Origin: Alphaproteobacteria bacterium
GTDB taxonomy: Bacteria; Pseudomonadota; Alphaproteobacteria; UBA9219
Direction of reading: 5' to 3'
Assembly (NCBI GenBank): GCA_028683655.1
Contig: JAQUHK010000004.1
Span: 1-47,446 of the forward strand
Length of the DNA stretch: 47,446 bases
In this document: positions 1 to 28,622 of the stretch, in pieces
Numbering within the stretch: the stretch's first letter is position 1
How the letters are laid out: each line of letters starts with the position of its first letter
The notes under the pieces: generated by a model
Told to the model about the DNA's origin: nothing
Databases searched by the model: none
The model's input: only the letters and a program-made list of their open reading frames with translations
Translations under genes and position numbers: made by a program

Positions 1-78
1 CCCCCGCTCCAGCAAAATCTAAGACTTGCCAAGAGGCAAGCCTAAGATTTTCCATCCTCTCCCGCCAGGGGAGAGGAG
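1..78. repeat. Core-A palindromic repeat, truncated by window edge
   Basis: It has an inner inverted repeat (CTAAGACTTGC facing GCAAGCCTAAG) followed by a short hairpin of the form CCTCTCCCGCC-AGGGGAGAGG. The same core sits inside the heptamer elements at 2005-2085 and 7405-7482, in variant form at 9652-9728, and alone at 24480-24573. The left part of the copy lies outside the window. Confidence 0.8.
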
Positions 79-123
79 CGGTAACGGGTAAGGCGGGTTC
101 GGTAGGGGAAGAGGGGGGGGCGG

Positions 124-771: not shown

Positions 772-1960
772 GGCGTCGCGGGGCAGCCAGCTGACGCCGC
801 GCGGGGCGTGGCGCATTTGGTTGATTTTGGCAGGACGCGGCTGGGGCAAGACGCGCACAGGCGCAGAGGACATTGCGGACTATGCGCTGTGGAATCCGCT
901 CTCGCGGATCGGCGTGATCGCGCCGACCTTTGCGGATGCGCGGGATGTGTGTGTGGAGGGCGAGAGTGGTCTTTTGCGGGTACTGCCGCCGCGCTGTATC
1001 AGCGCATGGCATCGCAGCACGGGCGACTTGCTGTTGTTTAACGGCACGCGCATCAAGCTTTATTCCGCCGACCAGCCGGAGCGGCTGCGCGGCCCGCAAC
1101 ATCACCGCGTGTGGTGTGACGAGCTGTGCGCTTGGCCAAGCGCGGCGGGGTTCGATCAGATGTTGTTCGGGCTGCGCCTTGGGGATGATCCTAGGGCGAT
1201 TATCACGACGACGCCGCGCAACACGCCGCTGGTCAAGGATTTGATCGCACGCGACGGACGCGATGTGCGCGTGACGCGCGGCAAGACGGACGAGAACGCG
1301 GCGCATTTGCCCGCTTGCGTACTGACGCAGCTTAAGGCGCGCTATGGCGGCACGCGGCTGGGGCGGCAAGAGCTGGACGGCGAGATTTTGGAAGATGTGC
1401 AGGGCGCACTTTGGCTACGCGAGCAGGTTGAGGGCTGCCGCGTGGCGAAGGCTCCCGCCCTAGAGCGGATCGTGGTGGCGATTGATCCCGCGATGAGCAG
1501 CGGCAAGCACAGTGATGAAACAGGCATCGTTGCCGCCGGACTTGGCGAGGATGGGACGATTTACATTTTGGCAGACTGGTCATGCCGCGCTTCGCCCGAA
1601 GGGTGGGCGCGTCGCGCGATCAGGCTTTATGAGGAGAAGGAAGCAGACATGATCGTTGGTGAGGTGAATGCAGGCGGTGATCTGGTTGAGCGGGTGCTTA
1701 AACAGATTATGCCCAAGATATTCTTTAAGCCCGTGCGGGCCGTGCGCGGCAAGGTGGATCGCGCTTTGCCCGTCGCGGCTTTGTATGAGCAAGGACGCAT
1801 CAAGCATGTCGGCGCGATGACGAAACTTGAAGACCAGATGACGCGCTTTACGCCCGACATCGTGGCGACGAACTCTCCCGATCGCGTGGATGCGATGGTT
1901 TGGGCGGTTACGGAGCTGAGCGAGACCAAGCGCGGCGTGCCGAGGGTGAGGGGACTCTAA
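665..1960 (+). CDS. Phage/GTA terminase large subunit
   Basis: This is the DNA-packaging motor: an ATPase that pumps DNA through the portal and a nuclease that cuts it. The ATPase Walker A is AGRGWGKT at residues 56-63, the Walker B-like segment is RVWCDELC, and the C-terminal RNase H-like nuclease begins at VVAIDPAMS with a late acidic DRVDAMVWA motif. About 431 residues is the family's usual length. An in-frame ATG at 641 is also possible, but 665 has a better placed AAGGAGA upstream. It matches gp2 of Rhodobacter-type GTAs in position, followed by portal, protease and capsid. The frame overlaps gp1 at its 5' end. It ends in TAA a few bases before a heptamer repeat. Confidence 0.93.
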   Translation: MTVKSGKPRSTKPESFLSALPLPHLAAFVARAKWLEASRGSQLTPRGAWRIWLILAGRGWGKTRTGAEDIADYALWNPLSRIGVIAPTFADARDVCVEGESGLLRVLPPRCISAWHRSTGDLLLFNGTRIKLYSADQPERLRGPQHHRVWCDELCAWPSAAGFDQMLFGLRLGDDPRAIITTTPRNTPLVKDLIARDGRDVRVTRGKTDENAAHLPACVLTQLKARYGGTRLGRQELDGEILEDVQGALWLREQVEGCRVAKAPALERIVVAIDPAMSSGKHSDETGIVAAGLGEDGTIYILADWSCRASPEGWARRAIRLYEEKEADMIVGEVNAGGDLVERVLKQIMPKIFFKPVRAVRGKVDRALPVAALYEQGRIKHVGAMTKLEDQMTRFTPDIVATNSPDRVDAMVWAVTELSETKRGVPRVRGL

Positions 1961-1963
1961 GCA

Positions 1964-2121
1964 AGCATTTAGCATTTAGCATTTGGCATTTGGCATTTAG
2001 GGGGATTACCCCCGCTCCAGCAAAAGCTAAGACTTGCTATCGCAAGCCTAAGATTTTGCGTCCTCTCCCGCCAGGGGAGAGGAAGGGACGGCCCTTCCCT
2101 AAATGCTAAATGCCATATGCT
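1964..2121. repeat. Heptamer inverted-repeat element, terminase-portal junction (copy 2)
   Basis: The left arm at 1964-2004 has five GCATTTR units and ends in TTTAGGGGG. Core A fills 2005-2085, and the right arm at 2094-2121 starts at TTCCCTAAATGC. The element begins right after the terminase stop and ends about 20 bp before the portal ribosome-binding site. Confidence 0.92.
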
Positions 2122-2148
2122 TTTTTCTTCAACATACAGCGAGGAACA

Positions 2149-3339
2149 ATGAAACTACGCGATGTAATGGCGCGGCTGGTAAGGGCCGAGCATGTCAAGA
2201 TGAGTGCCGCTGGCCCGATGGTGGCGTGGAGCCATATCGGCAAACCGAAATGGACTCCGCGACGCTATGAGTCTTTGGTGGAAGAGGGCTATCGCAAAAA
2301 TGTGGTGGCCTATCGTTGCGTCAATTTGATTGCGAGCGCGGTCGCGGCGATCCCTTGGCTGCTTTATGACGAGCGCGGCGCGGAGATCGAGGCGCATCCG
2401 CTTTTGGATTTGCTGGCTCATCCCAATCCGGTGCAGGACGGCGCGAGCTTTATGGAAGCGGTGGTCGTCAATTTGATGACGGCGGGCAATGCCTATATCG
2501 AGGCCGTGTGCTCCAAAGAAGGCAAGCCGCCGCAAGAGCTTTACGCGCTGCGCCCCGACCGGATGAAGGTTGTCCCCGCAGCCAGCGGGTTGCCTCTCGG
2601 CTATGAATACACGGTTGGCAGCAAGGTTGCGCGGTGGGCCGCCGATCCGCTGACGGGTGAGAGCGGGATTTTGCATATCAAGCATTTTCATCCGCTGGAT
2701 GACTGGTACGGGATGGCGCCGCTTGAGGCCGCGATGCTGTCGATTGACCAGCACAACGCAGCGGGCGCGTGGAATCAGGCTCTCCTTAATCAAGGGGCGC
2801 GGCCTTCGGGTGCTTTGGTTTATGCGCCCAAGGATGGGCCGTCCAACCTGACCGACGAGCAGATGAGCCGCCTGCGCGACGAGTTCTCGCAGAACTATCA
2901 TGGGCGCGGCAATGCCGGTCGCCCCATGATCCTTGAAGGGGGCCTTGAGTGGAAGGAGATGAGCCTTTCGCCCAAGGATATGGATTGGCTGTCGGGACGT
3001 GATGCGGCGGCGCGTGATATTGCGCTGGCCTTCGGGGTGCCCGTGCAGTTGATCGGCATTCAGGGCGCACAGACTTACGCCAACATGCAGGAGGCGCGGC
3101 TGGCGTTTTATGAGGAGACGGTGCTGCCGCTCGCGGGGCGGATCGTCGCCGCTTTCGATCATTGGCTCGCGCCGCACTATGGCGGCGGGGTTTATCTGGA
3201 TGTCGATTGCGACGAGGTGAGTGCCCTGACCGCACGGCGTGATGCTCTGTGGGACAAGATCGAACGCGCCAGTTTCCTAAGCGTGAATGAGAAGAGAGAA
3301 GCGCTTGGGTATGGGGCGGTGGAGGAAGAGAGCATTTAG
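2149..3339 (+). CDS. Phage/GTA portal protein, HK97 family
   Basis: The portal forms the dodecameric DNA channel at one capsid vertex and docks the terminase and connector. At 396 residues it is the usual size for the family. The conserved block with VVAYRCVNLIASAVAAIPW and PLLDLLAHPNP near residues 45-95 is typical, and the C-terminal half carries LAFGVPVQLIGI. I start at ATG 2149, preceded by GAGGA at 2141-2145. The in-frame ATG at 2110 lies in the right arm of the repeat and would only add repeat-coded residues. The last two codons and the stop (AGC ATT TAG) are the first bases of the next heptamer element. Confidence 0.93.
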   Translation: MKLRDVMARLVRAEHVKMSAAGPMVAWSHIGKPKWTPRRYESLVEEGYRKNVVAYRCVNLIASAVAAIPWLLYDERGAEIEAHPLLDLLAHPNPVQDGASFMEAVVVNLMTAGNAYIEAVCSKEGKPPQELYALRPDRMKVVPAASGLPLGYEYTVGSKVARWAADPLTGESGILHIKHFHPLDDWYGMAPLEAAMLSIDQHNAAGAWNQALLNQGARPSGALVYAPKDGPSNLTDEQMSRLRDEFSQNYHGRGNAGRPMILEGGLEWKEMSLSPKDMDWLSGRDAAARDIALAFGVPVQLIGIQGAQTYANMQEARLAFYEETVLPLAGRIVAAFDHWLAPHYGGGVYLDVDCDEVSALTARRDALWDKIERASFLSVNEKREALGYGAVEEESI

Positions 3340-3413
3340 CATTTTGCATTTGGCATTTAGGGGGGGGCGAGCAGGGGGCCTTCCTTAAATGCTAAATGCC
3401 ATATGCCAGATGC
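3331..3413. repeat. Heptamer inverted-repeat element, portal-protease junction (copy 3)
   Basis: The left arm at 3331-3366 starts inside the portal gene and supplies its stop codon; the right arm is at 3381-3413. There is no inner core, only about 14 bp of G-rich loop. It is the shortest full copy, so it shows the minimal unit. Confidence 0.9.
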
Positions 3414-3462
3414 TTCTTGGCCGTATGCTTAAAAATAACAGTTAAACAAAGCAGGAACCAAA

Positions 3463-4092
3463 ATGACAATTCAACATTTATCACGGCCACTGGCGGTTAA
3501 ATCGCTGGCGGCTGACGGGACTTTTGTGGGCTATGCGTCCGTCTTTGACGAGGTGGATAGCCAAAATGAAGTCGTGATCTATGGCGCGTTTTCAAAGACG
3601 CTGGAGCTGTGGCAACGCAAGAACGCTGCGCCCGCTATGCTGTGGATGCATGACCCCAGCGTGCCTATCGGCCTGTGGCTGGCTTTGGCCGAGGACCGAA
3701 AGGGCCTGATCGTTCATGGCAAGCTGGCTTTGTCCACGCAAAAAGGGCGCGAGGCTTACGAGCTTTTGAAGATGAAGGCGGTGAGCGGTTTGTCAATCGG
3801 CTATCGCATCGTCACGAGCCGGATCGACACCAAACGCAAGGTGCGCATTCTGACGGAAGTCGATTTGTTCGAGATTTCGCTGGTCACGTTTCCCGCCAAT
3901 GATGCGGCGCGGATCAGCGAGGTGAAGGCGGGCGGCAAAGCTTTGCTGGCCCGTGGTGGAAAGACAGGGAACGCCAAGCGTCCCGTCAAAGGAAAAACGG
4001 ACGCGGCGGCCACCCGCGCCGTTGTCGCGCGGTTGCATCAAACAGCGCGAATTTTAAAAGAAGGCACAAGCAACAAGGAGAAAAGAGTATGA
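3463..4092 (+). CDS. HK97-type prohead protease (peptidase U35)
   Basis: This protease cleaves the capsid protein's scaffold-like N terminus during head maturation. The herpesvirus-assemblin-like fold is indicated by VGYASVFDEVDSQNEVV near residue 22, the catalytic His63 in MLWMHD, and the catalytic Ser111 in SGLSIGY. The EVDLFEISLVTFPAN block follows at about 140-155. After residue 165 there is a basic, low-complexity tail. At 209 residues it is a normal size. Its stop overlaps the capsid start in ATGA at 4089-4092, so the two are translationally coupled, as expected for protease and substrate. Confidence 0.93.
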   Translation: MTIQHLSRPLAVKSLAADGTFVGYASVFDEVDSQNEVVIYGAFSKTLELWQRKNAAPAMLWMHDPSVPIGLWLALAEDRKGLIVHGKLALSTQKGREAYELLKMKAVSGLSIGYRIVTSRIDTKRKVRILTEVDLFEISLVTFPANDAARISEVKAGGKALLARGGKTGNAKRPVKGKTDAAATRAVVARLHQTARILKEGTSNKEKRV

Positions 4093-5321
4093 TTGATATG
4101 AACGAAGTGCAGTCGGCCACAGAGACGCTGGCGCGCGCTTTTGAAGAATATAAATGCGTGAACGACATGCGCCTTGCCGAGATTGAAGGCAAGGGATCGG
4201 GCGACGTGCTGTTGTCCGACAAGCTGGGCCGACTGGATCACGCGATTGACACGCTGCAAGACGATCTTTCGCGCGTCAAGACCGCGATGCGTCGTCCCGC
4301 CATGGGACGCGGTGAGGAGCGCGGCAGTGATGATGGCGAAGAGAGTGCCTATAAGGGCGCGTTCATGCGCTATCTGACCAAAGGGCTTGAGCCGGACTAT
4401 GGCCTCTATGCCAAGGATATGAGCGTGATCTCTGACCCGCAGGGCGGGTTTAGTGTTCCGGCGGAAATCTCGGAGCGCATTGTCTCGCGCCAGTTTGACA
4501 CCACGCCGATGCGCCAGATTGCGACGGTGATGAACATTTCATCCGACGCTGTGGAAATGCTGCGCGACACAAGCGAAGCCGATGCCCAGTGGGTGTCAGA
4601 GCTTGGCACGCGCAGCGATACGGATCAGGGCGCGATTGGCCGCATTCGTATTCCCGTGCATGAGCTGTTCGCGCAGCCCAAAGCGACGCAAAAGCTGCTT
4701 GATGACTCGATTTTGAATGTCGAGGAATGGCTGGTCGGGCGCGTCGCTGATAAGTTCTCGCGCCGCGAGAATACAGCGTTCGTGAGTGGCGACGGCGTAG
4801 GGCAACCTCGCGGCTTCTTGAGCTATAGCACCGCGGCGACGTCGGATGCTTCGCGCAACTGGGGCGTTTTAGAGCATGTGCCGACAGGCGCGGACGCAGC
4901 CTTCACCTCAAGCAATCCTGCCGATGCGCTGATTAGCCTGATGAACAAGCTGAAGGCCGGTTATCTGCCCAAGGCGACGTGGCTGATGCCGCGCTCGGTC
5001 GTGGATATGGTGCGCAAGTTCAAGGAAAGTGGCACGGGGGCCTATATCTGGCAGCCCAGCTTGCAGGCGGGGACGCCTGCGACCTTGCTCGGCTATCCTG
5101 TCATTTTGGCGGAGGATATGCCGACGGTGGCTTCGGGCAGCTTGTCGGTTGCGTTCGGTAATTTCGAGGAAGGCTATACCATCGTGGACCGCAAAGGCTT
5201 GCAGAGCTTGCGCGATCCCTACACGTCGGCGCCTTTCGTGAAGTTCCGTTGTTCCAAGCGTGTTGGCGGCGATGTCGTCAATTTCGATGCGATCAAGGTC
5301 CTGCGCTTCGCGACAGCTTAA
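4089..5321 (+). CDS. Major capsid protein, HK97 fold
   Basis: This is the main shell protein, 410 residues. An N-terminal helical delta-domain (residues about 5-70, acidic and coiled-coil-like) precedes the mature shell domain. That domain begins near SDPQGGFSVPAEISERI (residues about 115-130) and includes WLMPRSVVDMV, LGYPVILAEDMP and FVKFRCSKRVGGDVVNFDA, all typical of HK97 phage and GTA gp5 capsids. The upstream protease presumably removes the delta-domain. AAGGAGA at 4076-4082 gives a good ribosome-binding site. Confidence 0.95.
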   Translation: MIDMNEVQSATETLARAFEEYKCVNDMRLAEIEGKGSGDVLLSDKLGRLDHAIDTLQDDLSRVKTAMRRPAMGRGEERGSDDGEESAYKGAFMRYLTKGLEPDYGLYAKDMSVISDPQGGFSVPAEISERIVSRQFDTTPMRQIATVMNISSDAVEMLRDTSEADAQWVSELGTRSDTDQGAIGRIRIPVHELFAQPKATQKLLDDSILNVEEWLVGRVADKFSRRENTAFVSGDGVGQPRGFLSYSTAATSDASRNWGVLEHVPTGADAAFTSSNPADALISLMNKLKAGYLPKATWLMPRSVVDMVRKFKESGTGAYIWQPSLQAGTPATLLGYPVILAEDMPTVASGSLSVAFGNFEEGYTIVDRKGLQSLRDPYTSAPFVKFRCSKRVGGDVVNFDAIKVLRFATA

Positions 5322-5328
5322 GGAATTG

Positions 5329-5430
5329 CGTCATCGCGAGCCAAGCTTGCTTGGCGTGGCGATCCAGTCCTTAGGCGTAAGGCTTGGGGACTGGATTGCT
5401 TCGTCGCGCTTTGCGCGCCTCGCAATGACG
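5329..5430. repeat. CGTCATTGCGAG-type palindromic repeat (family B)
   Basis: This is a long imperfect palindrome beginning CGTCATCGCGAG and ending CTCGCAATGACG, with inner arms GGCGATCCAGTCC and GGGGACTGGATTGC. Further copies lie at 13346-13444, 19122-19218 and 34987-35083, and a half copy at 309-349. It sits between the capsid gene and the next gene. Such GTCATTGCGAG palindromes are widespread in bacteria; their function is unknown. Confidence 0.9.
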
Positions 5431-5461
5431 ATAGGTTTGAAAAAAACAAGGAGAGAGAAAA

Positions 5462-5851
5462 ATGGCACTAAGAGATTTGGTATCGACGATGGCGGCGAAG
5501 TTGTCGCTTTCGCCTGCGGCGCGAGTCACAGGCACGTCAACAGGCACAGCGGTGGATTTGCGAGGCTATGACGCGGCGGTCGTTGTTGTCACGTTTGGGG
5601 CTTATACGGACGGCACGCATACGCCGTCATTGCAGCATTCGACCGATGGCTCGACCTATACGACTGTGACGGCGACTGACTTGCAGGGCAGCTTTGCGGT
5701 TGTCTCAAGCGTAGGCGGCGCAAACAGCGTGCAGAGCGTTGGCTATATCGGCAGCGCACGTTACGTGCGCGTCGTCATGACGGTGGCGAGCGCAACGACG
5801 GGGGCTTTGTCCTCGGCCAGCGTCATCGCGGGCATGCCACGCGTGGCGTGA
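5462..5851 (+). CDS. Hypothetical protein in head region, possible decoration or stopper protein
   Basis: A 129-residue protein rich in Thr, Ser, Val and Gly. Apart from a short amphipathic N terminus (MALRDLVSTMAAKL) it looks all-beta. The middle (VTFGAYTDGTHTPSLQHSTDGSTYTTV) and end (SARYVRVVMTVASATTGALSSASVIAG) resemble the beta-sandwich proteins encoded near phage capsid genes. Its position right after the capsid fits a decoration or accessory head protein, but I recognise no named family. GGAGAGAG lies 9 bp before the ATG. Confidence 0.7.
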   Translation: MALRDLVSTMAAKLSLSPAARVTGTSTGTAVDLRGYDAAVVVVTFGAYTDGTHTPSLQHSTDGSTYTTVTATDLQGSFAVVSSVGGANSVQSVGYIGSARYVRVVMTVASATTGALSSASVIAGMPRVA

Positions 5852-5910
5852 GGGGATAGGTAATACCAACAAGCGCATGAAAGGCGACACGTAAGCTAAC
5901 CATGCCCTTC

Positions 5911-6047
5911 GTCACCCCGCACTTGATGCGGGGTCCAGACCAATGCTGCGCAGGAGGCCTAACGCTGGTTCCTTGTGAGCAAGATCGGCTGGATCCCGCA
6001 TCACGCAGCCCGCGCTTCGCGCTGGCTGCTGTGCGGGAAGACGAGGG
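5911..6047. repeat. GTCACCCCGC-type palindromic repeat (family C)
   Basis: This fills most of the 308-bp gap between two head genes. It begins GTCACCCCGCACTTGATGCGGGG (a 7-bp hairpin of CCCCGCA and TGCGGGG) and contains CTGGATCCCGCATCACGC, then ends GTGCGGGAAGACGAGGG. The outer arms pair imperfectly. It is the only copy in the window. I see no gene in the rest of the gap. Confidence 0.75.
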
Positions 6048-6159
6048 AGGGTGAGTTTTGTGCGCCGGTGCATAGGTGGGTTGGTATAAGGCGGACCTTC
6101 CCGTCCCTTGGGGCGGGGAGGTTTTGTTTGTTGGGGGTTTAGATCAAGGAAGGATTGGC

Positions 6160-6429
6160 ATGATTGATACGTATTTGAAATCGACAAATAGAGAAGCGTT
6201 GGAGGCTTTACGCGCTGGCGCGGTGAATGTGATCGGGCCGGTGCAGGGCTGTGCGGCAATGGAGGCCGTGACGCTTGAGGATGGTTCTGTGATTCCTGCG
6301 CAGGAAGCCAAAGGCGACCCCGCTTATTGGTATGTGTGCGTGCGGCTTGTGGTGCCTGTCGGTGTCTCGGAAGAGATCGAGGCTTGTGACGCGGCGGAGG
6401 GGCAGGCTGTTTGCGGCCTGTGGTTATGA
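6160..6429 (+). CDS. Hypothetical protein upstream of connector
   Basis: An 89-residue protein of unknown family. I start at ATG 6160 because AAGGAAGG lies 6 bp upstream. A longer in-frame start at 6076 has no such signal and would run through repeat-flanking sequence. Residues 1-30 look helical (NREALEALRAGAVNVIG), and the end contains a strand-rich WYVCVRLVVPVGV segment. The stop overlaps the connector start in ATGA at 6426-6429, so it is co-translated with head-tail joining genes. Confidence 0.7.
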   Translation: MIDTYLKSTNREALEALRAGAVNVIGPVQGCAAMEAVTLEDGSVIPAQEAKGDPAYWYVCVRLVVPVGVSEEIEACDAAEGQAVCGLWL

Positions 6430-7034
6430 GTATGGGGGTTTTATTTTCATCGAATGTTCTGACCGTGTCTGCGGCTGTTGAACCTGTCAGCGTGGAGGAG
6501 TTGAAGGCTCAGGCGCGGATTGCGGGCGAGGGCGAGGATGCGCTGCTCACGCGGCTGATTGAAGCGGCGCGGCAGTGGGCCGAGCGGTTTATGGGCCGCG
6601 TGCTGATCGAGCAAACGTGGGTGGCGGGTTTTTCATCCGTCCCGCGCGGGCGTTTTGTGACGCTGCCAAGTGGCCCTTTGCTGAGCGTCGAGCAGGTCGA
6701 AGCCTATGACGAGCGCGACAATGCGACGCTGTGGGCCACCAGCAATTACTATGTGGACGATCAGCGTGTGCCCGCGCGGCTTGTGCTGCGCGACGGAGCT
6801 TGCTGGCCCGACATGACGCGCTGTGCCAACGGGATGACGGTGACCTATAAGGCTGGATACGGCGCGGCGGCTAGCGATGTGCCAGAGCTGATCCGCACCG
6901 CGATTTTGCAACTGGCGACGCACTGGTTCGAGAATAGAGGCGAGGCCTCGGCGGTTGATGAGCGCGGCGTGATGGCCCCGCTGATGGTTCAAGCGTTGTT
7001 GCAACCTTATAAAATCCTGCGAGCGGGGGCGTGA
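6426..7034 (+). CDS. Phage/GTA head-tail connector (gp6-like)
   Basis: This protein would form the ring below the portal. At 202 residues it has the helical N terminus typical of the gp6/phiE125 gp8 connector family: SVEELKAQARIAGEGEDALLTRLIEAARQWAERFMGR at residues about 20-60. The pattern VTYKAGYG with PELIRTAILQLATHWFENRGE is at about 140-170. I choose ATG 6426, which overlaps the previous stop; ATG 6432 is also possible. It overlaps the next gene by TGATG at 7032-7036. Confidence 0.88.
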   Translation: MSMGVLFSSNVLTVSAAVEPVSVEELKAQARIAGEGEDALLTRLIEAARQWAERFMGRVLIEQTWVAGFSSVPRGRFVTLPSGPLLSVEQVEAYDERDNATLWATSNYYVDDQRVPARLVLRDGACWPDMTRCANGMTVTYKAGYGAAASDVPELIRTAILQLATHWFENRGEASAVDERGVMAPLMVQALLQPYKILRAGA

Positions 7035-7366
7035 TGAAGATCGGGTCGATGAATGTGCCGCTGTTGCTTCAGGCGCAGAGCCTTGTTGATGATGGCGAGG
7101 GCGGGCAGATCGCACAGTGGGCGACGCTGGCCGCCCTGTGGGGCAAGATCGAGCGCACCTTTGATGGCAGTAGCGTGACAGCGGATTAAAACCGCATCAC
7201 GCACAAGATCACGGTGCGGCGGCGTGAAGATGTCGCTTTCGCGCCTGCTCAACGGCTTTCCTATGAAGAGGCGGAGAAGTTTTACATGATCCATCGTGTC
7301 GAGCTAGACGCGAAGGACAAGGGGTATCTCGCGCTGGGCGTTGGGGAAGTCGGGTATGTGAATTGA
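7034..7366 (+). pseudogene. Head-tail adaptor (gp7-like), interrupted by in-frame TAA
   Basis: The frame starts at ATG 7034, overlapping the connector stop, and runs 110 codons to TGA 7364-7366, but has a TAA at 7187-7189 (codon 52). Upstream the reading is normal (QSLVDDGEGGQIAQWATL...LWGKIERTFDG). Downstream the same frame continues as a typical adaptor C terminus: ITHKITVRRREDVAFAP, then LSYEEAEKFYMIHRVELDAKDKGYLALG. A single substitution creating the stop (for example CAA or GAA to TAA) explains it. Either the gene is dead, or the stop is read through or is a sequencing error. Truncated, it would yield 51 residues. Confidence 0.82.
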
Positions 7367-7369
7367 AGA

Positions 7370-7526
7370 AGCATATAGCATTTGGCATGTGGCATTTAGG
7401 GCAGAACCCCCGCTCCAGCAAAATCTAAGACTTGCTGACGCAAGCCTAAGATTTTGCGTCCTCTCCCGCGAGGGGAGAGGAAAGGAGGGCCCTTCCCTAA
7501 ATGCAAAATGCCAGATGCTAAATGCT
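7370..7526. repeat. Heptamer inverted-repeat element, adaptor-DUF2460 junction (copy 4)
   Basis: Left arm 7370-7401, core A 7405-7482, right arm 7493-7526. It occupies exactly the place where GTAs carry the tail terminator, tail tube, chaperones and tape measure (gp8-gp11). Confidence 0.92.
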
Positions 7527-7551
7527 TTACAAAGATTGGGAAGAACCACAA

Positions 7552-8181
7552 ATGTCATTTGACGAAATCGTTTTCCCGTTGTCCTTGAGCGCAGGGACAA
7601 GCGGCGGGCCGTGCTTTGCCACTGAGGTGGTGACAATCGACGGCGGGTTTGAGCGGCGCAACCAGAAATGGGCGCAGCCGCGCAGGCGGTATAATGCGCA
7701 GGCGGGTGTTGTCACGATGCGCGAGGCGGCCTTGCTGACGGCGTTTTTTCAAGCGCGGGCGGGGCGGGCTCGCGGGTTCCGGTTGCGTGATGCAAGCGAT
7801 TGCACGAGTGCAGCCGATGGGCTTAGTGCGCCCGATTGGCGCGATCAGGAAATCGGCATAGGAGATGGTGTGACGACGCAGTTCCAGCTTGTCAAAACCT
7901 ATGGCAATGCTTCGGTGTCGTTTGCGCGAGAGATCAAGAAGCCCGTCGCCGGATCGGTGCGCGTCGGCGTGGATGATACGGAATACACAAGCGGGTGGAG
8001 CGTGGATGTCACAAGGGGGATCGTGTCCTTTGCGCAGGCTCCCGCAAGTGGCGTGGTCATCAAGGCGGGCTATCGGTTCGATGTGCCTGTGCGCTTTGAT
8101 ACCGATACGCTGGATTTGAGCTTTGTCGGACAAAGTCGCGCTCAAGGCAACGTTCCGCTGATCGAGGTGCGCACGCCATGA
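7552..8181 (+). CDS. Distal tail protein, DUF2460 family (GTA gp12-like)
   Basis: This is the distal tail ring protein that joins tail tube to baseplate hub. It has 209 residues. Family features are the N-terminal MSFDEIVFPLSLSAGTSGGPCFATEVV, the RNQKWAQPRRRYNAQ segment near residue 40, AFFQARAGRARGFRLRD near 65-80, and a C terminus with VRFDTDTLDLSF. I start at ATG 7552, after GGGAAGAA; the in-frame ATG at 7522 is in the repeat's right arm. It overlaps the next gene by ATGA at 8178-8181. Confidence 0.92.
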   Translation: MSFDEIVFPLSLSAGTSGGPCFATEVVTIDGGFERRNQKWAQPRRRYNAQAGVVTMREAALLTAFFQARAGRARGFRLRDASDCTSAADGLSAPDWRDQEIGIGDGVTTQFQLVKTYGNASVSFAREIKKPVAGSVRVGVDDTEYTSGWSVDVTRGIVSFAQAPASGVVIKAGYRFDVPVRFDTDTLDLSFVGQSRAQGNVPLIEVRTP

Positions 8182-9029
8182 AGACGATAGGAAGCGCTTT
8201 AGGCGCGCATTTGGCTGGCGAGCTGACGACGCTGGCGGAGCTTGTGGCGATCACGCGCAAGGATGGCGTGGTGGTTGCTTTTACGACGCATGATGCGGAT
8301 TTGCTCGTCGATGGCGTGAGCTATCGCGCTGATGGAAGCTATAGCGACGGGGAAAGCTTGGCGCAGAAAAGCGAGCTGAAAGCCGATGATTATGACGTGA
8401 CGGGCGTGCTGGACTCCGCGCTGATTGATGCGGGGGATGTCGAGGCTGGGCTTTACGATCATGCGCGGGTGGATGTGTATCTGTGCAACTGGGCCGATCC
8501 GCAGATGGGTAAGGTGCATTTGCGGCGCGGGTGGCTGGGCGAGATTGCGCAAAGCGGCGGGCAGTATAAGGCGAGCTTGCGCGGGATGCAGGATTTGCTG
8601 ACGCGCCCCATTGGGGCGACTTACACGCCCGCTTGTCGCCATGATTTTTGTGACGGCGCGTGCGGGATCGCTGCGGCCAGTGTGACGGTGAGCGGCTCTG
8701 TGAGCTTTGTGACGGACAGGCGCCGTTTCACGGACAACAGCCGAGAGGAAGGCGCGGGCATCTTCACCGATGGCATTTTGACATGGACGAGCGGCGCGAA
8801 TGCGGGCTTGGCTTTCGAGATTGCGGCGTGGGACAGCGCGGCCAAGGCGTTCAAGCTGTGGCTTCCCGCGCCGAAGGAAATCGCTGTCGGGGATAGCTTT
8901 ACGGCACGCGCAGGGTGCGACAAGCATTTTTCAACATGCCGGACGCGCTTCGGGAATGGTGCCAATTATGGCGGGTTTCCGTATCTGCCCGGTGTTGGGA
9001 AGTTGCTGGATTATCCAGAGGGGAATTGA
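8178..9029 (+). CDS. Baseplate hub protein, DUF2163 family (GTA gp13-like)
   Basis: A 283-residue protein of the DUF2163/BR0599 type, the hub of the GTA tail tip. It has ELTTLAELVAITRKDGVVVAFTTHD near the N terminus and GLYDHARVDVYLCNWADPQ mid-protein. The cysteine-bearing C-terminal region has ACRHDFCDGACGI (residues about 152-164), and CDKHFSTCRTRFGNGANYGGFPYLPG closes the domain; these cysteines are typical of the family and hub proteins of this type may bind an Fe-S cluster. It is coupled to the DUF2460 gene by overlap. It ends in TGA just before a heptamer element. Confidence 0.92.
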   Translation: MKTIGSALGAHLAGELTTLAELVAITRKDGVVVAFTTHDADLLVDGVSYRADGSYSDGESLAQKSELKADDYDVTGVLDSALIDAGDVEAGLYDHARVDVYLCNWADPQMGKVHLRRGWLGEIAQSGGQYKASLRGMQDLLTRPIGATYTPACRHDFCDGACGIAAASVTVSGSVSFVTDRRRFTDNSREEGAGIFTDGILTWTSGANAGLAFEIAAWDSAAKAFKLWLPAPKEIAVGDSFTARAGCDKHFSTCRTRFGNGANYGGFPYLPGVGKLLDYPEGN

Positions 9030-9034
9030 AGGGG

Positions 9035-9164
9035 AGCATTTGGCATTTGGCATTTGGCATTTAGGGGAGCGGGTAAAAACCAGTCACTCTCCCGCAAGGG
9101 GAGGATGCTTGATGAGGGAAAGGATGGCTCTTCCCCAAATGCTAAATGCCAAATGCCAAATGCT
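9035..9164. repeat. Heptamer inverted-repeat element, DUF2163-NlpC junction (copy 5)
   Basis: The left arm at 9035-9068 and right arm at 9131-9164 are nearly perfect reverse complements over 33-34 bp, differing at about two positions. It is the cleanest copy. The interior is about 60 bp and includes a remnant CTCTCCCGC-AAGGGGAG hairpin of core A. Confidence 0.93.
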
Positions 9165-9185
9165 TTTAAAAAGGGTGAACAATGA

Positions 9186-9611
9186 ATGACAGACAAAACA
9201 GAAACAATGATAGCCGCCGCGCGCGGGTGTTTGGGAACGCCGTTTCATCATCAGGGACGCGTGGCGGGCGTGGGGCTCGATTGCATCGGGCTTATCGTTC
9301 TGGCGATGCGGGCGGCTGGGTTGAGTGTCGAGGACCAAACGGACTACGCGCCGCGTCCCGATGGAGCCTCGCTGATCGCCGCACTGATCGCGCACGGGTG
9401 GAGGCCGACAGAGACGGGGGGGATCCATGGAGGTGATGTGCTTGTTTTTCGTTATGACCATCAGCCTCAGCATGTGGCGTTAGCCACCTCGCCCACCACG
9501 CTGATCCACAGCTTCGCCCCCGTGGGCAAGGTCGTGGAGACAGAGATTGGCGCGTATTGGATGAGAAGGTTGGTGGGGGTTTATCGGTTAGAAGGGAGCA
9601 TTTGGCATTAG
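9186..9611 (+). CDS. NlpC/P60 cell-wall peptidase (GTA gp14-like)
   Basis: A cysteine peptidase that opens peptidoglycan at the tail tip during DNA delivery. It has 141 residues. The catalytic Cys33 is in GLDCIGL and His96 in QHVALA, with His108 in LIHSF; the start is GCLGTPFHHQGR, typical of the GTA-type NlpC/P60. The last codons, AGC ATT TGG CAT TAG (coding S-I-W-H-stop), lie in the left arm of the next heptamer repeat, so the native C terminus was probably replaced. A GGGTGAAC stretch precedes the ATG; an ATG at 9182 is in another frame. Confidence 0.92.
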   Translation: MTDKTETMIAAARGCLGTPFHHQGRVAGVGLDCIGLIVLAMRAAGLSVEDQTDYAPRPDGASLIAALIAHGWRPTETGGIHGGDVLVFRYDHQPQHVALATSPTTLIHSFAPVGKVVETEIGAYWMRRLVGVYRLEGSIWH

Positions 9612-9808
9612 CCAAGAAAGCATTTGGCATATGGCATTTGGCATTTAGGGGGTCCCCCTCACCAAGAAAAACTAAGGCCTTGCTGGCGCAAGACCAAGTT
9701 TTTCTATCCTCTCCCGCGAGGGGAGAGGAAAATGGGAGGAGCTTGTGCGTTTTGTTGAGCAAAAACGTTCTTCCCTCCCCAAATGCTAAATGCGATATGC
9801 CAAATGCT
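9598..9808. repeat. Heptamer inverted-repeat element, NlpC-megatron junction (copy 6)
   Basis: The left arm (9598-9652) is doubled, with GCATTTGGCATTAGCC before a second run of units. The core is a diverged core A at 9652-9728 (ACTAAGGCCTTGC facing GCAAGACCAAG). An extra 45 bp follows, then the right arm at 9775-9808. The stop of the upstream gene lies in the left arm. Confidence 0.9.
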
Positions 9809-9825
9809 TATTAAAAGGAAACAAC

Positions 9826-12800
9826 ATGGCTTCAATCGTTTTTGCAAGTGTCGGCGCGTCGGTCGGCAACATGATTTTGCCCGGCCTTGGTGGGCGGCTT
9901 TTGGGAAGTTTTGCGCGGCAGGCGGGTAAGCTTGTCGATGCAGAGCTGGGCCTGACGACCTCCGCCAAGGATGGGGCGCGGCTTGAGAACTTCAAGGTTC
10001 AGGACTCGCGCTATGGCGTTACGTTGCCCGTGCTTTTTGGCTGTGTGCGCGTGGCGGGGAATGTGATCTGGGCTTCGGATTTGATCGAGACAGCGCATGA
10101 GACAAGCGTTAGTGGCGGCAAGGGCGGCGTGATGTCCAGCGCCCTTGGCGCGACGCGCACGACGTATACTTACAGTTTGCATTGCGCGGTCGCCATCGGG
10201 CTGGGCCCTGTTGGCGGGGTGCAACGTATCTGGGCCGATAGCAAGGTGATCTATGAAAACGGCGTGTGTGCTTCGGGCGTTGTCGGCTCGGCTTCGTTTC
10301 ATCTGGGCGAAGAGGCGCAAGCCGTCGATGCGTTTATGGAATCGTGCCTCGGCAGCGGGATGAGTCCGGCCTATCGCGGGGTGGCTTATGTCGTGCTGGA
10401 GTCGCTGCAACTCTCGAAGTTCGGGAACAGGCTGCCTAACCTGACGTTCGAGCTGTTGCCCGCGACGAGTACAGGGAGCCCGACGCTGACGGGGAGCCTT
10501 AATCCGGCTTTGTCGGTGCCCGTGGTGAGCAACAGGCAGGGCGGGATGGAGCCACTGGTTGCCGAAGGTGGTGATGTGGCGCGGCGCAAGGTTTATGTCG
10601 ACGGCTATCTGTTGTCGGGTGGGCTCGCGCAGTTTGTGGTGACGACTTATGACGTGACGAGCGAGACTCCCGTCGAGCTGCGCCGTGATGTGAGTGCGAC
10701 GTTTGTATGCGCAGGCGTTTATGAGCAGAGCTGGGTCGCAAGCCCTAGCGGGCGTTATGTGGTGATGGGGCTGCAAGACACAGGTGTGGGCTATCCTTAT
10801 CGCACGATGATCTATGACACCGTGACGCACAGTTTCGGCGCGGCGCAAAGCACGTCTATGACCGCGTTAGAGCTGCGCCAGATGGCGTGGCTGGATGCTT
10901 ATCGCGTGATCGTGACGGATCAGCGCAGCGGGGCGCGGGGCGTGCGCGTTTATCTGCGCTCTGGCTCCTCGCTGGTCGATCAGGGATTCTTTGATGTGTG
11001 GGGAAGCGGGACAGCGAGCACGCGCTTGCCGCTGGCTTACGCGCAGTTTCGCCCCTATGGCGACGGGCTGCTGACCTATGCGGGGGATGCGTCGCTGAAG
11101 TTCAGCAATTTGTATGCGCGGGTGATCGCGTGGAACGGCACGGGCCTGAGCGTTGGCGCAGCGGTGACGGTTTCGAGTGGATATAATCTTGGAACGGGAA
11201 GCTCGCCGCAGGTTCATTTGATCGAGACGGGGGAGGGTGAATGGACGCTGTGTTATATGACGGTGTCGGACATGCAGGTGTTGTCGTTTGTGCCAAGCGC
11301 AAGCGGCGTGACGATCACGCGCCCGTGGCAGAAGATCAAAAGCGCGAAGTTTGTTTTGTCCAACACGAATTATCCCGTCTTGTATGGGGATCGTCTGTGC
11401 GTTTTGCATCGCTCTTATACCGAGAGCCAGTATCGCCTCAGCGAAATTAAGCTGGAGGCGGGGGCGTTTACGCTTGTGACGGATGCGGCGGTGGTGGCGA
11501 ACAGCTCGCCGCCCGCCAGTAATTTCAGCGCCTATAGCGTGAGCGCAACGCGCCTTGCGGTGCTGGGCAATTCGGGATCGACCGCGACGCTGGCGCAGGC
11601 GGCTTTGGTCAAGCGGCGCAATACGGGCGACACGCTCGCGCGGATCGTGGCGGCGATTTTAGAGCGGGCAGGCTATGCGGACAGTGATTATGACGTGAGC
11701 GCGTTGGATGCGATTGAGGTTGATGGCTATGCGCTGTCTGACCAAACGACGGCGGCGCGGGCGATTGAGCCGTTGCAGAACTTTGCGCGGTTTGATTTGG
11801 TCGAGCAGGATGGGATGCTCCGCGCCGTTTTGCATGGGCAGGGCGACGAGGTCAGCGTGGCGGCAAGCGAGACGGGGGCGAGCCTTGCGCCGGAGAAAGG
11901 CGAGGATGGGCTTGTGCGGACTTCGCGGGCGCAGCAGCTGGATATGCCTTTGGAGGTGTGCGTCGATTATCTGGATGCCTCGCTGGATTACGAGACGGGC
12001 AGCCAGCGCGCGCGGCGTAGCGTGTCGGGCGGCGCACGAAGCGTGGAGAAGATCACGCTGCCACTGGTGTGCAGCGCGACGCGTGCGCGGCGCGTGGCGG
12101 AAAACCAGCTTTATGCCGCTTGGGTGCAGCGCGAGCGATACAGGCTTTATCTGTCGCTTGCCTTTGTGGGGCTTAATCCATCCGATGTGGTGGTTTATGA
12201 GGGCAAGAGGCTGCGCGTGCTGGCGGTGACGCGAAAGCGTGGGATCGTGCAGGTGGATGCTCTGTCCGCCGTGCCGTCTGATATGGTGAGCGAGGCGACG
12301 GCAGAAAGCACTTCGGCCTCAAGCGCAAGCGCGAACGTGGCGGTGAGCAGTGAGGCTTATTTGATGGACGTGCCTTTGCTGCGCGAGCAGGACGATCAGG
12401 CTGGGCTTTATGTTGCCGTGAGTGGCGCGGACGGTTGGCGCGGGGCAAGCCTGTGGCGGGCAGCGGACGGGGTGAGCTTCACGCGCCTGACAAGTTTTGC
12501 GCAAGCGGCGAGCGCAGGTGTGGCGACGACGGCCCTTGGTACGGCCTCGCCTTTTTATAAGGACAAGGCGCGAAGCGTGCGCGTGCAAATGCTGCGCGGC
12601 CAGCTTGCGAGCTGTACGGAGAGCGAGCTTTTGAACGGGGCGAATGTCGCGCTGTTGGGCGAGGAGCTGATCCAGTTTCAGGCCGCGACGTTGATCGAGG
12701 CGGGGCTTTATGAGCTGTCGGGCCTGTTGCGCGGGCGGCGCGGGACGGAAGACAAAACGGGATCGCATGTCGTGGGCGAGCGGTTTGTTTTACTTACCGC

Positions 12801-13269
12801 CACGGCGATGCAGTTTGTGCCGACACCGCTCAGCGATAGGGGCATGAGCTATCACTTCCGCGCGGTGAGTGACGGCGGCTCGCTTGATTTCGCGTTGGAC
12901 CGCACGCTGGCTTACGGGATGAAGACGCTGGAGCCTTATGCGCCTGTGCATATCAAGGGGGTGCGCAGCGCGGGGACGGGCAGCGATGTGATGCTGCGCT
13001 GGAAGCGGCGCGCGCGGATGAATGCCGCTTGGGTCGATTATATCGACGTGCCACTTGATGAGGCGCAGGAGCTTTATGACGTCGAGATCATGAACGGCGG
13101 CGCGGTCGTGCGCACGTTCAGTGATGTGGCGCAGGCGAGCGTTGTTTACACCGCCGCAATGCAAACGACGGATTGGGGCGCGAGTATTCCTTCGACCTAC
13201 ACGGTGCGCGTTTATCAAAAGAGCGCACGCTATGGGCGGGGGAAGAAGGGGGAAGGAAGTAGCATTTAG
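9826..13269 (+). CDS. Megatron / host-specificity tail-tip protein (GTA gp15-like), variant middle
   Basis: This 1147-residue protein would form the tail-tip fibre and cell-wall contact. The N terminus (GASVGNMILPGLGGRLLGSFARQ), YGVTLPVLFGCVRVAGNVIWASDL and TYTYSLHCAVAIGLGPV are characteristic of GTA gp15. The phage-tail domain with AAILERAGYADSDYDVSALD and LQNFARFDLVEQDGMLRAVLHG at about 620-680 is also typical, as is LYELSGLLRGRRGTE further on. Residues about 240-610 do not look like the TIM-barrel hydrolase of the model GTA. They are repeated beta strands with YDVTS and YDTVTHSFG motifs, as in a beta-propeller. Start is ATG 9826 after AAAAGGA. The gene ends S-I-stop on AGC ATT TAG of the next repeat. 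Confidence 0.88.
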   Translation: MASIVFASVGASVGNMILPGLGGRLLGSFARQAGKLVDAELGLTTSAKDGARLENFKVQDSRYGVTLPVLFGCVRVAGNVIWASDLIETAHETSVSGGKGGVMSSALGATRTTYTYSLHCAVAIGLGPVGGVQRIWADSKVIYENGVCASGVVGSASFHLGEEAQAVDAFMESCLGSGMSPAYRGVAYVVLESLQLSKFGNRLPNLTFELLPATSTGSPTLTGSLNPALSVPVVSNRQGGMEPLVAEGGDVARRKVYVDGYLLSGGLAQFVVTTYDVTSETPVELRRDVSATFVCAGVYEQSWVASPSGRYVVMGLQDTGVGYPYRTMIYDTVTHSFGAAQSTSMTALELRQMAWLDAYRVIVTDQRSGARGVRVYLRSGSSLVDQGFFDVWGSGTASTRLPLAYAQFRPYGDGLLTYAGDASLKFSNLYARVIAWNGTGLSVGAAVTVSSGYNLGTGSSPQVHLIETGEGEWTLCYMTVSDMQVLSFVPSASGVTITRPWQKIKSAKFVLSNTNYPVLYGDRLCVLHRSYTESQYRLSEIKLEAGAFTLVTDAAVVANSSPPASNFSAYSVSATRLAVLGNSGSTATLAQAALVKRRNTGDTLARIVAAILERAGYADSDYDVSALDAIEVDGYALSDQTTAARAIEPLQNFARFDLVEQDGMLRAVLHGQGDEVSVAASETGASLAPEKGEDGLVRTSRAQQLDMPLEVCVDYLDASLDYETGSQRARRSVSGGARSVEKITLPLVCSATRARRVAENQLYAAWVQRERYRLYLSLAFVGLNPSDVVVYEGKRLRVLAVTRKRGIVQVDALSAVPSDMVSEATAESTSASSASANVAVSSEAYLMDVPLLREQDDQAGLYVAVSGADGWRGASLWRAADGVSFTRLTSFAQAASAGVATTALGTASPFYKDKARSVRVQMLRGQLASCTESELLNGANVALLGEELIQFQAATLIEAGLYELSGLLRGRRGTEDKTGSHVVGERFVLLTATAMQFVPTPLSDRGMSYHFRAVSDGGSLDFALDRTLAYGMKTLEPYAPVHIKGVRSAGTGSDVMLRWKRRARMNAAWVDYIDVPLDEAQELYDVEIMNGGAVVRTFSDVAQASVVYTAAMQTTDWGASIPSTYTVRVYQKSARYGRGKKGEGSSI

Positions 13270-13522
13270 CATTTGGCATTTGGCATTTGGCATTTAGGGG
13301 GGTGGAGCTAAATCTGTGACTAAACTTTCAATGAAATACCCCACGGCGTCATTGCGAGGAGGCCTTGGCCGACGAAGCAATCCAGTCCCGTTGCTTGAAA
13401 CTTGGGGACTGGATCGCCGCGTCGCTGCGCTCCTTGCGATGACGGTATGAGGAGAAAATAAGCGTTTTGTTGAACCGAAACACTGTCCTTTCCCCAAATG
13501 CTAAATGCCATATGCCAAATGC
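13261..13522. repeat. Heptamer inverted-repeat element, megatron-DUF2793 junction (copy 7)
   Basis: The left arm at 13261-13302 has five units and the right arm is at 13490-13522. The interior holds a complete family B palindrome (13346-13444) instead of core A, so different repeats can occupy the same heptamer frame. Confidence 0.92.
13346..13444. repeat. Family B palindromic repeat nested in heptamer element
   Basis: It begins CGTCATTGCGAGGAGGCC and ends CTTGCGATGACG, with inner arms AGCAATCCAGTCC and GGGGACTGGATCGCC around a short loop. It is most like the copies at 19122-19218 and 34987-35083. Confidence 0.9.
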
Positions 13523-13542
13523 TTTTTAAACAAGGAGAACAC

Positions 13543-13887
13543 ATGACAATAAGTCCGAATCTATCTTTAGGGTATCTGGCCTCTTCGCAGGCGCAGAAGG
13601 AAGTGACTCATAACGAGGCGCTTAATGATCTTGATGCGCTGGTGCAGCTTTCGGTCGCAAGCCGCACACTGACAACGCCGCCCGCCACTCCGGCAGAGGG
13701 CGATAGCTATATCGTCGGCGCGGCGGCGACGGGCGCATGGGCGGGGCATGATCTCGCTGTGGCGGCTTACTATGGCAGCTGGGTGTTCAAAACGCCCAAG
13801 GCGGGTTGGCTCGCTTTCGTGCGCGGCGAGACGAAGTTTTACGTTTTCAACGGCTCAAGCTGGGCCGCTTTGGGAGGTTTTCTATGA
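13543..13887 (+). CDS. DUF2793 family GTA-associated protein
   Basis: A 114-residue protein of the DUF2793 type commonly found at the end of alphaproteobacterial GTA/prophage tail clusters. It shows LGYLASSQAQKEVTHNEALNDLDALVQLSV at residues 8-37, PPATPAEGDSYIVG and the aromatic C terminus with WLAFVRGETKFYVFNGSSW. These proteins are thought to be tail-fibre or adhesin-related; the molecular role is not established. I start at ATG 13543 after AAGGAG; the in-frame ATG at 13498 is in the repeat arm. The stop overlaps the next gene in ATGA. Confidence 0.85.
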   Translation: MTISPNLSLGYLASSQAQKEVTHNEALNDLDALVQLSVASRTLTTPPATPAEGDSYIVGAAATGAWAGHDLAVAAYYGSWVFKTPKAGWLAFVRGETKFYVFNGSSWAALGGFL

Positions 13888-14162
13888 AGCTTGAAGTGAA
13901 TGACGGGATCGTGCGCGGTTTGCCGCTTGCCATCCTCGTCACTTTTTTGGTGCAGGGCAGCACGCTGGTCTGGTGGGTGTCGGCCAAGGCGCGGGACGGT
14001 TATTTCCTTGAACAGCGCGTCACGACTCTTGAGCTGGCGCAGGGCAAGGCGAGTGATCTGCAAAGCCAGACGATGCAACGCCTCGCGCGTATCGAGGAAC
14101 GTCTTGTCGCGCAAGGCGGGGTGTTGGAGAGGATTGAGAGGAATGTAGGGGGAGGAAGATAG
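13884..14162 (+). CDS. Small membrane protein with coiled coil, possible spanin/holin accessory
   Basis: A 92-residue protein with one transmembrane segment (LPLAILVTFLVQGSTLVWWV, about residues 12-31) followed by a coiled coil (YFLEQRVTTLELAQGKASD through LARIEERLVAQGGVLERIERN). That layout, placed just before the lysozyme, fits an inner-membrane spanin-like or lysis accessory protein. No family is recognised. GGGAGG lies 7 bp before the ATG, which overlaps the DUF2793 stop. Its TAG stop is shared with the first base of the next heptamer repeat. Confidence 0.75.
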   Translation: MKLEVNDGIVRGLPLAILVTFLVQGSTLVWWVSAKARDGYFLEQRVTTLELAQGKASDLQSQTMQRLARIEERLVAQGGVLERIERNVGGGR

Positions 14163-14250
14163 CATTTGGCATTTGGCATATCGCATTTAGGGAAGAAGTG
14201 GATAAAAGCGATCTGCCTCCCTAAATGCAAAATGCCATATGCTATATGCT
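14161..14250. repeat. Heptamer inverted-repeat element, lysis-region junction (copy 8)
   Basis: Left arm 14161-14192, right arm 14217-14250, about 24-bp loop, no core. The AAGGAGG ribosome-binding site of the lysozyme starts 3 bp after the right arm. Confidence 0.9.
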
Positions 14251-14263
14251 TTAAGGAGGAACC

Positions 14264-14755
14264 ATGTTTGAAGAAATTGATACAAGCCTCGACCCAATCA
14301 TCGACCACTCCAAAGGCTGGCGGCGGATTGGTGAGCGTGGGCTTGCGCTGATTAAAGAGTTCGAGGGGCTGCGGCTTAAGGCTTACAAATGTCCGGCGGG
14401 CGTGTGGACGATTGGCTATGGCCATACGGGTGGCGTGCAGCCGGACTGGGTGATCACGCAAGAGGTGGCCGAGCGGTTCTTGCGCGAAGACCTTTTCCAT
14501 GCGGAGCGATCCGTCGGCGCCTATGCCTGCATCAAGCTGAATGACAACCAGTTCGCGGCTCTGGTGTCGTTTGCGTTCAATGTCGGCGTGAAGAATTTCG
14601 AGAGGTCGCAGCTTCTCATGCTGCTGAACCGTGGCTGGTACGATCAGGTGCCTGCCCAGCTGATGCGCTGGACCAAGGTGCATGGGGTGGAGATGCAAGG
14701 ACTTGTGCGGCGAAGGGCGGCTGAGGCGGGGTTGTGGGGAGATAGAAGCATTTAG
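14264..14755 (+). CDS. Lysozyme/endolysin, GH24 family
   Basis: A muramidase that degrades peptidoglycan to release particles. It has 163 residues, with the phage lysozyme catalytic triad in the E-8aa-C-5aa-T spacing seen in P1/P21-type endolysins: Glu34 in EFEGLRL, Cys43 in YKCPAG and Thr49 in WTIGYGHT. The domain continues with LNDNQFAALVSFAFNVG near residue 105. There is no signal peptide or SAR segment, so export depends on the holin. The preceding AAGGAGG is strong. The final S-I-stop is coded by the next repeat's AGC ATT TAG. Confidence 0.93.
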   Translation: MFEEIDTSLDPIIDHSKGWRRIGERGLALIKEFEGLRLKAYKCPAGVWTIGYGHTGGVQPDWVITQEVAERFLREDLFHAERSVGAYACIKLNDNQFAALVSFAFNVGVKNFERSQLLMLLNRGWYDQVPAQLMRWTKVHGVEMQGLVRRRAAEAGLWGDRSI

Positions 14756-14840
14756 CATTTTGCATTTGGCATATAGGGGAAGGTGTTGTGGAGAGGAAGG
14801 ACGGCTCCCTCCAAATGCTAAATGCCATATGCCAAATGCT
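14748..14840. repeat. Heptamer inverted-repeat element, lysozyme-holin junction (copy 9)
   Basis: The left arm at 14748-14779 supplies the lysozyme stop; the right arm is at 14806-14840. The loop is about 26 bp and holds no core. Confidence 0.9.
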
Positions 14841-14863
14841 TTTTTAACAGAAAGGAACAAACT

Positions 14864-28600: not shown

Positions 28601-28622
28601 TCAATGCCATATGCTAAATGCT
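28601..28622. repeat. Solo heptamer arm near rlmD 3' end
   Basis: Three YAAATGC-type units (ATGCCATATGCTAAATGCT). Read on the minus strand this is a left arm starting 8 bp after the rlmD stop, the same relation to a gene end as in the GTA cluster. No partner arm is seen within 250 bp. The rest of the 255-bp gap holds nothing I recognise. Confidence 0.7.

Follow-up and report, generated by a model that had tools for sequence, protein, structure and literature searches.

Heptameric tandem repeats have been described in Xanthomonas, where the GGGAATC repeats prefer four units and form 70-75 inverted convergent pairs (Rehm et al. 2015, PMC4692102). In Xanthomonas and in Nostoc, whose word is GGGGA(C/T)T, such repeats lie mostly between aligned open reading frames (ORFs), rarely between divergent ones, overlap stop codons, and are found no more than 50 bp past a stop if on the sense strand, or no more than 50 bp ahead of the following ORF if on the antisense strand. 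In Xanthomonas, 83% of the repeats are conserved both in position and in word type, and transcripts start or stop more often at heptamer repeats capable of forming G-quadruplexes than at control repeats, the function being left open (PMC4692102). We analysed elements of the same kind, known but unexplained, in a window of 47,446 nucleotides, the whole of contig C38 from the draft genome (2.28 Mb, 207 contigs) of a Micavibrio-like bacterium (G000). There, inverted repeats built of the 7-bp word GCATTTR accompany a gene cluster resembling those of gene transfer agents (GTA).

The 7-bp units, the preference for four of them, the inverted pairing, the placement at stop codons and the avoidance of divergent regions are shared with the Xanthomonas and Nostoc heptamers, and the Nostoc word is close to GGGACTM, the word of the related genome G001. 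New in comparison with Xanthomonas are a word without G-runs, which in G000 cannot form G-quadruplexes, unlike words in sister species at one and the same junction, a tighter anchoring to the stop, cores resembling repetitive extragenic palindromes (REPs) in the loops between the arms, and a strong enrichment in the GTA-like cluster.

Three other systems are less close. The REPs or CGTC-tagged palindromes, of 20-40 bp, lie downstream of genes between unidirectional or convergent ORFs and sometimes supply a stop codon, and those of the CGTC type have been reported from alphaproteobacteria including Micavibrio (Di Nocera et al. 2013, PMC3733652). Placement and stop-codon supply are alike, and one class of our cores, family B, looks similar; however, each REP is one palindrome tagged by GTAG or CGTC, whereas the present arms are 28-bp heptamer arrays and only the optional family B core has CGTC-like ends. 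The Correia repeat enclosed elements of Neisseria, which RNase III binds and cleaves (PMC2649163), are likewise dispersed inverted repeats round a core near genes, but their arms are not tandem heptamers, and an action of RNase III on the present elements would be an analogy only. The TAACTGA repeats of Beggiatoaceae are intergenic heptamer tandem repeats near genes, but they are mostly direct, lie mostly just upstream of start codons, and consist of one word with only one indirect repeat in the genome (MacGregor 2015, PMC4679880). No report of such elements in the present clade was found in the open-licence papers searched.

Anatomy and distribution of the heptamer elements

A two-unit signature of the word was found 28 times in the window and not once in 100 second-order Markov shuffles. 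All eight gene junctions to which the preliminary description had assigned GCATTTR inverted repeats carry one, and a ninth element, ahead of the terminase genes, had been overlooked. The elements and related repeats are as follows (window coordinates, no strand assigned; TerL, large terminase):

195-503, heptamer element 1, upstream of the small and large terminase genes; arms 195-222 and 476-503, four units each
1965-2120, heptamer element 2, TerL to portal; left arm 1965-1999 (five units), right arm 2100-2120 (three units), loop containing core A
3332-3413, heptamer element 3, portal to protease; arms 3332-3359 and 3386-3413, no core; an arm supplies the portal stop
7371-7525, heptamer element 4, g8 to gp12; arms 7371-7398 and 7498-7525, loop containing core A
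9036-9163, heptamer element 5, gp13 to gp14; arms 9036-9063 and 9136-9163, the best paired copy
9598-9807, heptamer element 6, gp14 to gp15; partial extra array 9598-9611 besides the main arms 9620-9647 and 9780-9807, loop resembling core A
13262-13522, heptamer element 7, gp15 to DUF2793 gene; left arm 13262-13296 (five units), right arm 13495-13522, loop containing a family B palindrome; an arm supplies the gp15 stop
14162-14249, heptamer element 8, orf x14 to lysozyme; arms 14162-14189 and 14222-14249, no core
14748-14839, heptamer element 9, lysozyme to holin; arms 14748-14775 and 14812-14839, no core; an arm supplies the lysozyme stop
28601-28621, lone degenerate right arm of three units, outside the cluster
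5328-5431, family B palindrome without heptamer arms, between capsid and the next gene

Arms of three to six units had been announced, and arms of three and five do occur in the window, but the number is usually exactly four (in G000, in 16 of the 22 left arms and in 17 of the 22 on the right). As had been described, the loops hold nothing, core A or a family B palindrome. The palindrome extends inward past the arms (GGGGAAG...CTTCCCC) and, in the GCATTTR family, outward as well, with purine-rich sequence before (e.g. GAAGAA) and T-rich sequence after. The nine elements gave folding z-scores of about -5 to -13, with 20-27 arm bases predicted to pair; in the copy at 9036-9163, already singled out for its well-matched arms, 27 of 28 arm bases pair.

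Core A (CCCCCGCTCCAGCAAAATCTAAGACTTGC...CCTCTCCCGCGAGGGGAGAGG), a palindrome, recurs as a dispersed repeat (window 1-77, 2009-2083, 7407-7481 and 9654-9729) and is also found without heptamer arms, e.g. at the portal-protease junction of G003 (L089). Family B consists of palindrome pairs (CGTCATTGCGAGG ... GATCCAGTC ... CCTCGCAATGACG) in and outside the cluster (5329-5430, 13347-13444, 19122-19218 and 34987-35083) and looks like the CGTC-type REPs, a likeness read from the sequence and not from a formal family test. Every non-overlapping junction from TerL to holin is occupied by a dispersed repeat, eight by heptamer elements and two by other palindromic stretches (5328-5431 and ~5905-6035). 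A tandem array of a 12-bp unit (CGACTCGATTCA) at 35133-35179 is unrelated to the heptamers.

Among 19 orthologous GTA loci, the period was 7 in 38 of 39 short tandem arrays (23 of 24 when G000 was excluded), and five rounds of shuffling of the same loci produced three arrays in total; in arbitrary stretches outside GTA loci, other periods occur as well. Exactly four units were counted in 65 of the 94 arms of 47 paired elements from fetched loci of related genomes, a count biased towards the searched words, as the non-GTA loci were found by word pattern. With genes called by a single, simple dicodon model, 30 of 37 elements between co-directional genes had their stop-side edge no more than 10 bp from the upstream stop (median 4 bp). 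The median distance on the start side was 28 bp, so that this edge lay before the ribosome-binding site (RBS). Between convergent genes, three of five elements span from stop to stop, and none of 42 elements lay between divergent genes, compared to 50 divergent pairs among 371 background neighbour pairs. A three-frame stop cassette, in which a TAG-bearing 7-bp unit closes all frames, was rejected, since this holds for just 6 of the 47 left arms.

The genome was searched with a degenerate three-unit pattern allowing up to 3 mismatches and with the reversed pattern as control, the figures obtained being pattern counts and not a full census. The pattern matched 137 times in G000 and its reversed control 0 times; 43 matches fell in window positions 1-15,000 and 94 outside. 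The earlier remark that one extra arm (28601) lies outside the cluster is therefore correct as regards the window, though not when the whole genome is considered, and the elements are not specific to the cluster, since others come after rpsB, pgk, uvrB, purH, proS and nuo genes; in general, those outside adjoin the 3' ends of ordinary genes, including also a DUF484 gene, an ABC transporter gene and others. Equal density everywhere was nevertheless not found when copies inside and outside were counted, the cluster being ~70-fold denser in pattern matches than the rest of G000. A word-free scan for tandem arrays with periods of 4-15 gave 15 arrays in the 15.3 kb of the cluster and 0 in 223 kb elsewhere (192 kb of arbitrary stretches and the remaining 31 kb of the window); the corresponding figures were 9 in 9.2 kb and 4 in 200 kb for G005, and 9 in 20 kb and 7 in 147 kb for G026, from another family of the same order. 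Three genomes that use different words thus have a hotspot in the cluster, yet the elements are not restricted to it. Most of the other GTA clusters examined are not hotspots, 12 of 19 having zero or one period-7 array. Two G005 contigs, C10 (L090, 1-34) and C7 (L151, 1-281), both end within a heptamer array, apparently at the same g8-gp12 junction; because the repeats limit assembly in this way, the element counts are lower bounds.

Words and gains at orthologous junctions

Within one genus the dominant words are GCATTTR (G000 and G004), RGGTTAG with AGAGTTC (G005) and GGGACTM (G001), and AGGRTTC is present in G003; the words of the more distant G026 are TCAGAAR and GTGAARA. At the rpsB-tsf junction a heptamer hairpin is found in five of the six species of the genus compared, spelled in four different words: GCATTTR in G000, GCATTTA in G004, GGGACTN in G001, GGGTTCA in G003 and AGAGTTC in G005. 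None was found there in G002. The sister species G004 and G005, with 92% identity in rpsB and 90% in nuoF, have different words both at rpsB-tsf and at nuoE-nuoF, and both have GCATTTR ahead of the same downstream gene, read as gap (L147 and L152). Directly after nuoF, a small ORF in G005, G003 and G010 (L253, L256 and L257) reads by eye like a GIY-YIG endonuclease (WVYIVTDKPYGTLYTGVTNDLARR).

In the GTA-like cluster, the junctions TerL-portal, g14-g15, g15-DUF2793, x14-lysozyme and lysozyme-holin each carry an element in two to four species, and the words are for the most part unlike. Words may also change stepwise, since a single array on contig C115 of G004 mixes AGGGTTC and AGCATTC units. 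At these distances, the sites may either have been inherited, with the word replaced, or have been re-invaded by new families.

Many orthologous junctions in G013 and G003 measure 0-50 bp (stop, few bases, RBS) and carry no element; at junctions where some relatives have 5-50 bp, G000 has 100-270 bp, with the element between stop and RBS. Four cluster genes (portal, gp15, lysozyme and orf x14) take all or part of their stop codon from an element; the first three products end in ...SI, encoded by xGC ATT TAG, and the last base of x14 is also the first of the arm. From this position, the stops supplied and the short junctions of relatives, it follows that the elements arrived once the genes were already in place. 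The suggestion that they have spread here is supported by the same short junctions, by the captured stops and by the occurrence of one word at dozens of loci, and the elements have terminal inverted repeats, as do miniature inverted-repeat transposable elements. No clear target-site duplication was seen with occupied and empty junctions side by side, the relatives being too diverged.

The GTA-like cluster

The cluster comprises the following genes:

641-15274, +, GTA-like cluster, from domain matches and gene calls
641-1960, +, TerL, Terminase_6
2149-3339, +, portal, Phage_portal
3463-4092, +, protease, Peptidase_S78
4089-5321, +, capsid, Phage_capsid
5462-5851, +, small ORF
6160-6429, +, small ORF
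6411-7034, +, connector
7034-7366, +, g8, frame broken by an in-frame TAA
7552-8181, +, gp12, DUF2460
8178-9029, +, gp13
9186-9611, +, gp14, NlpC/P60
9826-13269, +, gp15
13543-13887, +, DUF2793 gene
13884-14162, +, orf x14
14264-14755, +, lysozyme
14864-15274, +, GTA holin

Its domains also include a phiJL001_Gp84/BR0599 hub, listed between DUF2460 and NlpC/P60, and Phage-tail_3 with Rcc01698_C. The cluster is inherited vertically, because relatives share the gene order and G001, G004 and G005 also have the squalene-hopene cyclase gene downstream; in its conserved head and hub genes, in GTA order, it agrees with clusters of the RcGTA type. The TAA in g8 lies at 7187-7189 and is a nonsense change or a sequence error, both halves being otherwise open.

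No major tail or tape-measure gene was found between connector and gp12 in G000, G001, G003, G010 and G013, where this interval holds only 276-517 bp; the genes were sought at this junction and not elsewhere in the genomes. These GTA-like clusters may be without a normal tail tube. The stretch at 7034-7552 of the window, like those of L088, L089, L091 and L099, fits g8 alone, and in a longer relative (L189) it holds head closure, tail terminator and one unnamed 112-amino-acid ORF. Loss of the tail genes g9-g11 through recombination at the 7370 repeats was ruled out, the same short gap being present in relatives without repeats there.

Two relatives differ around the portal gene. In G004 (L145, 10087-11043) the portal is cut after residue 319 and joined directly to gp15 from residue 72; either the interval was deleted or the draft is misassembled. 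In G009 (L095, 4440-6140) the portal ORF is lengthened by an RVPAGNSDGGQWTSG stretch, after which come small ORFs; part of this stretch recurs ahead of the protease gene, as though a cassette had entered the portal-protease junction.

Possible role and origin of the elements

Stop anchoring, the avoidance of divergent promoters and the strong predicted hairpins point to a role, or at least tolerance, of a hairpin at mRNA 3' ends, and structure would be favoured over sequence, because both arms change together between species. The preliminary description had suggested that the hairpins could split the mRNA and set the ratios of structural proteins. In the best reading, which we hold with about as much doubt as confidence, these are non-autonomous intergenic repeats, transcribed as 3'-end hairpins that delimit mRNAs, the word being free if the arms agree. 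The element, an inverted repeat normally of four 7-bp units per arm and closed directly or round a REP-like core, would sit on the stop of a gene and end before the next RBS, or at the opposing stop if genes converge. Once transcribed, it would form a hairpin of 28-37 bp at the 3' end of the coding sequence. This hairpin would be what is kept, and might delimit the upstream message from the downstream one as a 3' barrier, a partial terminator or a processing site for a double-strand-specific RNase; by analogy, double-stranded stems of this length would be apt substrates for RNase III. Any heptamer would serve while both arms share it, so that one word family might replace another at a junction, and the cluster transcript would fall into about eleven cistron units, because a dispersed repeat lies at each of the junctions without gene overlap between TerL and holin. 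In this scheme the anatomy, the period of 7 bp, the four-unit rule, the stop anchoring, the differing words at orthologous junctions and the enrichment in the cluster are observed; that the elements are transcribed, that they are processed or terminate transcription, and how they are copied, we infer.

The GCATTTR family in G000 is T-rich after the arms (4.7 of 8) and A-rich before them (4.05 of 8), as in a bidirectional terminator, and by its T-tracts bidirectional termination would be possible for this family. Several observations weigh against the role proposed. The T-tract of the GGGACTM family is weaker (3.3 of 8) and termination there would not be convincing, and a standard terminator scan did not pick the elements, whose stems and loops are long. 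Arms within an element are no more alike than arms across elements of one word family (permutation p 0.97, G000), and covariation of the arms within an element, as base-by-base compensatory change, is absent. The placement counts rest on gene calls from one simple model. Finally, general sharing of sites was not upheld at the uvrB 3' end, where G000 alone has an element among the genomes with a readable 3' end. Known RNA families gave just two matches, to microRNA hairpins and far below the gathering score.

The repeats could also be purely selfish or neutral, spreading by transposition or gene conversion and persisting only where they are harmless, between a stop and the next RBS, with the GTA cluster dense since it is rarely expressed and weakly selected. 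We regard this as possible though doubtful. In its favour are the recurrence of one word at dozens of loci, the gains over junctions that are short and look ancestral, captured stops, other dispersed palindromes in the cluster and long unrelated inserts at the junctions of more distant relatives. However, tolerance alone does not predict anchoring to both stops, as in three of five elements between convergent genes, and the occupation of rpsB-tsf in five species by four words and the regularity of the four-unit arms, too great for free slippage, also speak against it. Slippage itself, by which heptamers would expand locally at hairpins during replication, the polymerase slipping most easily by 7 bp, has been cited for heptamer abundance by Rehm et al. 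(PMC4692102). It would account for the period of 7 in all but one of the GTA-locus arrays, for the great length of a few arrays in G005 and G001 and for the two mixed words of the G004 array, but one word at many unlinked loci goes beyond a local process and the arms show a peak at four units instead of a broad spread, which makes it quite improbable.

It is very unlikely that the heptamer arms are REP-like elements moved by a Y1 tyrosine transposase, as REPs are by REP-associated tyrosine transposases. REPs share the placement and often give a TAG stop (PMC3733652), and REP-like cores lie within some elements; however, no Y1 transposase match was found in G000, G001, G005 or G026, all carriers of the elements, although in drafts such an absence is not final, nor was a reverse transcriptase match found in the G000 draft. 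The Y1 transposase domain PF01797 was found in 4 of 15 genomes. Mobility by either enzyme was therefore set aside. G-quadruplex formation, as discussed for the Xanthomonas and Nostoc heptamers, deserves scarcely any credence here: some words of the genus are G-rich (GGGACTM and GGGTTAG, in G001 and G005) and four units are preferred, but GCATTTR has no run of three G in its arms, which excludes quadruplexes for this word, and shows the same four-unit preference, pairing and placement.

An activity might also rewrite or replace the 7-bp word in both arms of many dispersed hairpins at orthologous sites, conserving the form and changing the spelling, always in 7-bp units and usually in four, so that every species would have a word of its own at inherited sites of inherited architecture. 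This idea is tentative and we consider it unlikely; if it were true, these alphaproteobacteria would possess a machinery able to measure out 7 bp and to count up to four, perhaps the one behind the heptamers of Xanthomonas and cyanobacteria.

The elements first noticed in the window are real and more regular in form than first described, and their hairpins would act at the ends of messages if the reading as 3'-end delimiters holds. Bacterial heptameric repeats have so far been without known function, and the leading idea, the G-quadruplex, relies on G-rich words. The genus offers a natural word-swap experiment, in which junctions, the 4 x 7 architecture and stop anchoring stay constant while the words differ, one of them free of G-runs. 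Such a swap separates an effect of structure from an effect of sequence, and suggests that what is conserved is the hairpin or else a mechanism that copies in steps of 7 bp. GTA-like clusters of this order can be hotspots of heptamer elements, and the question of why seven and why four becomes directly testable.

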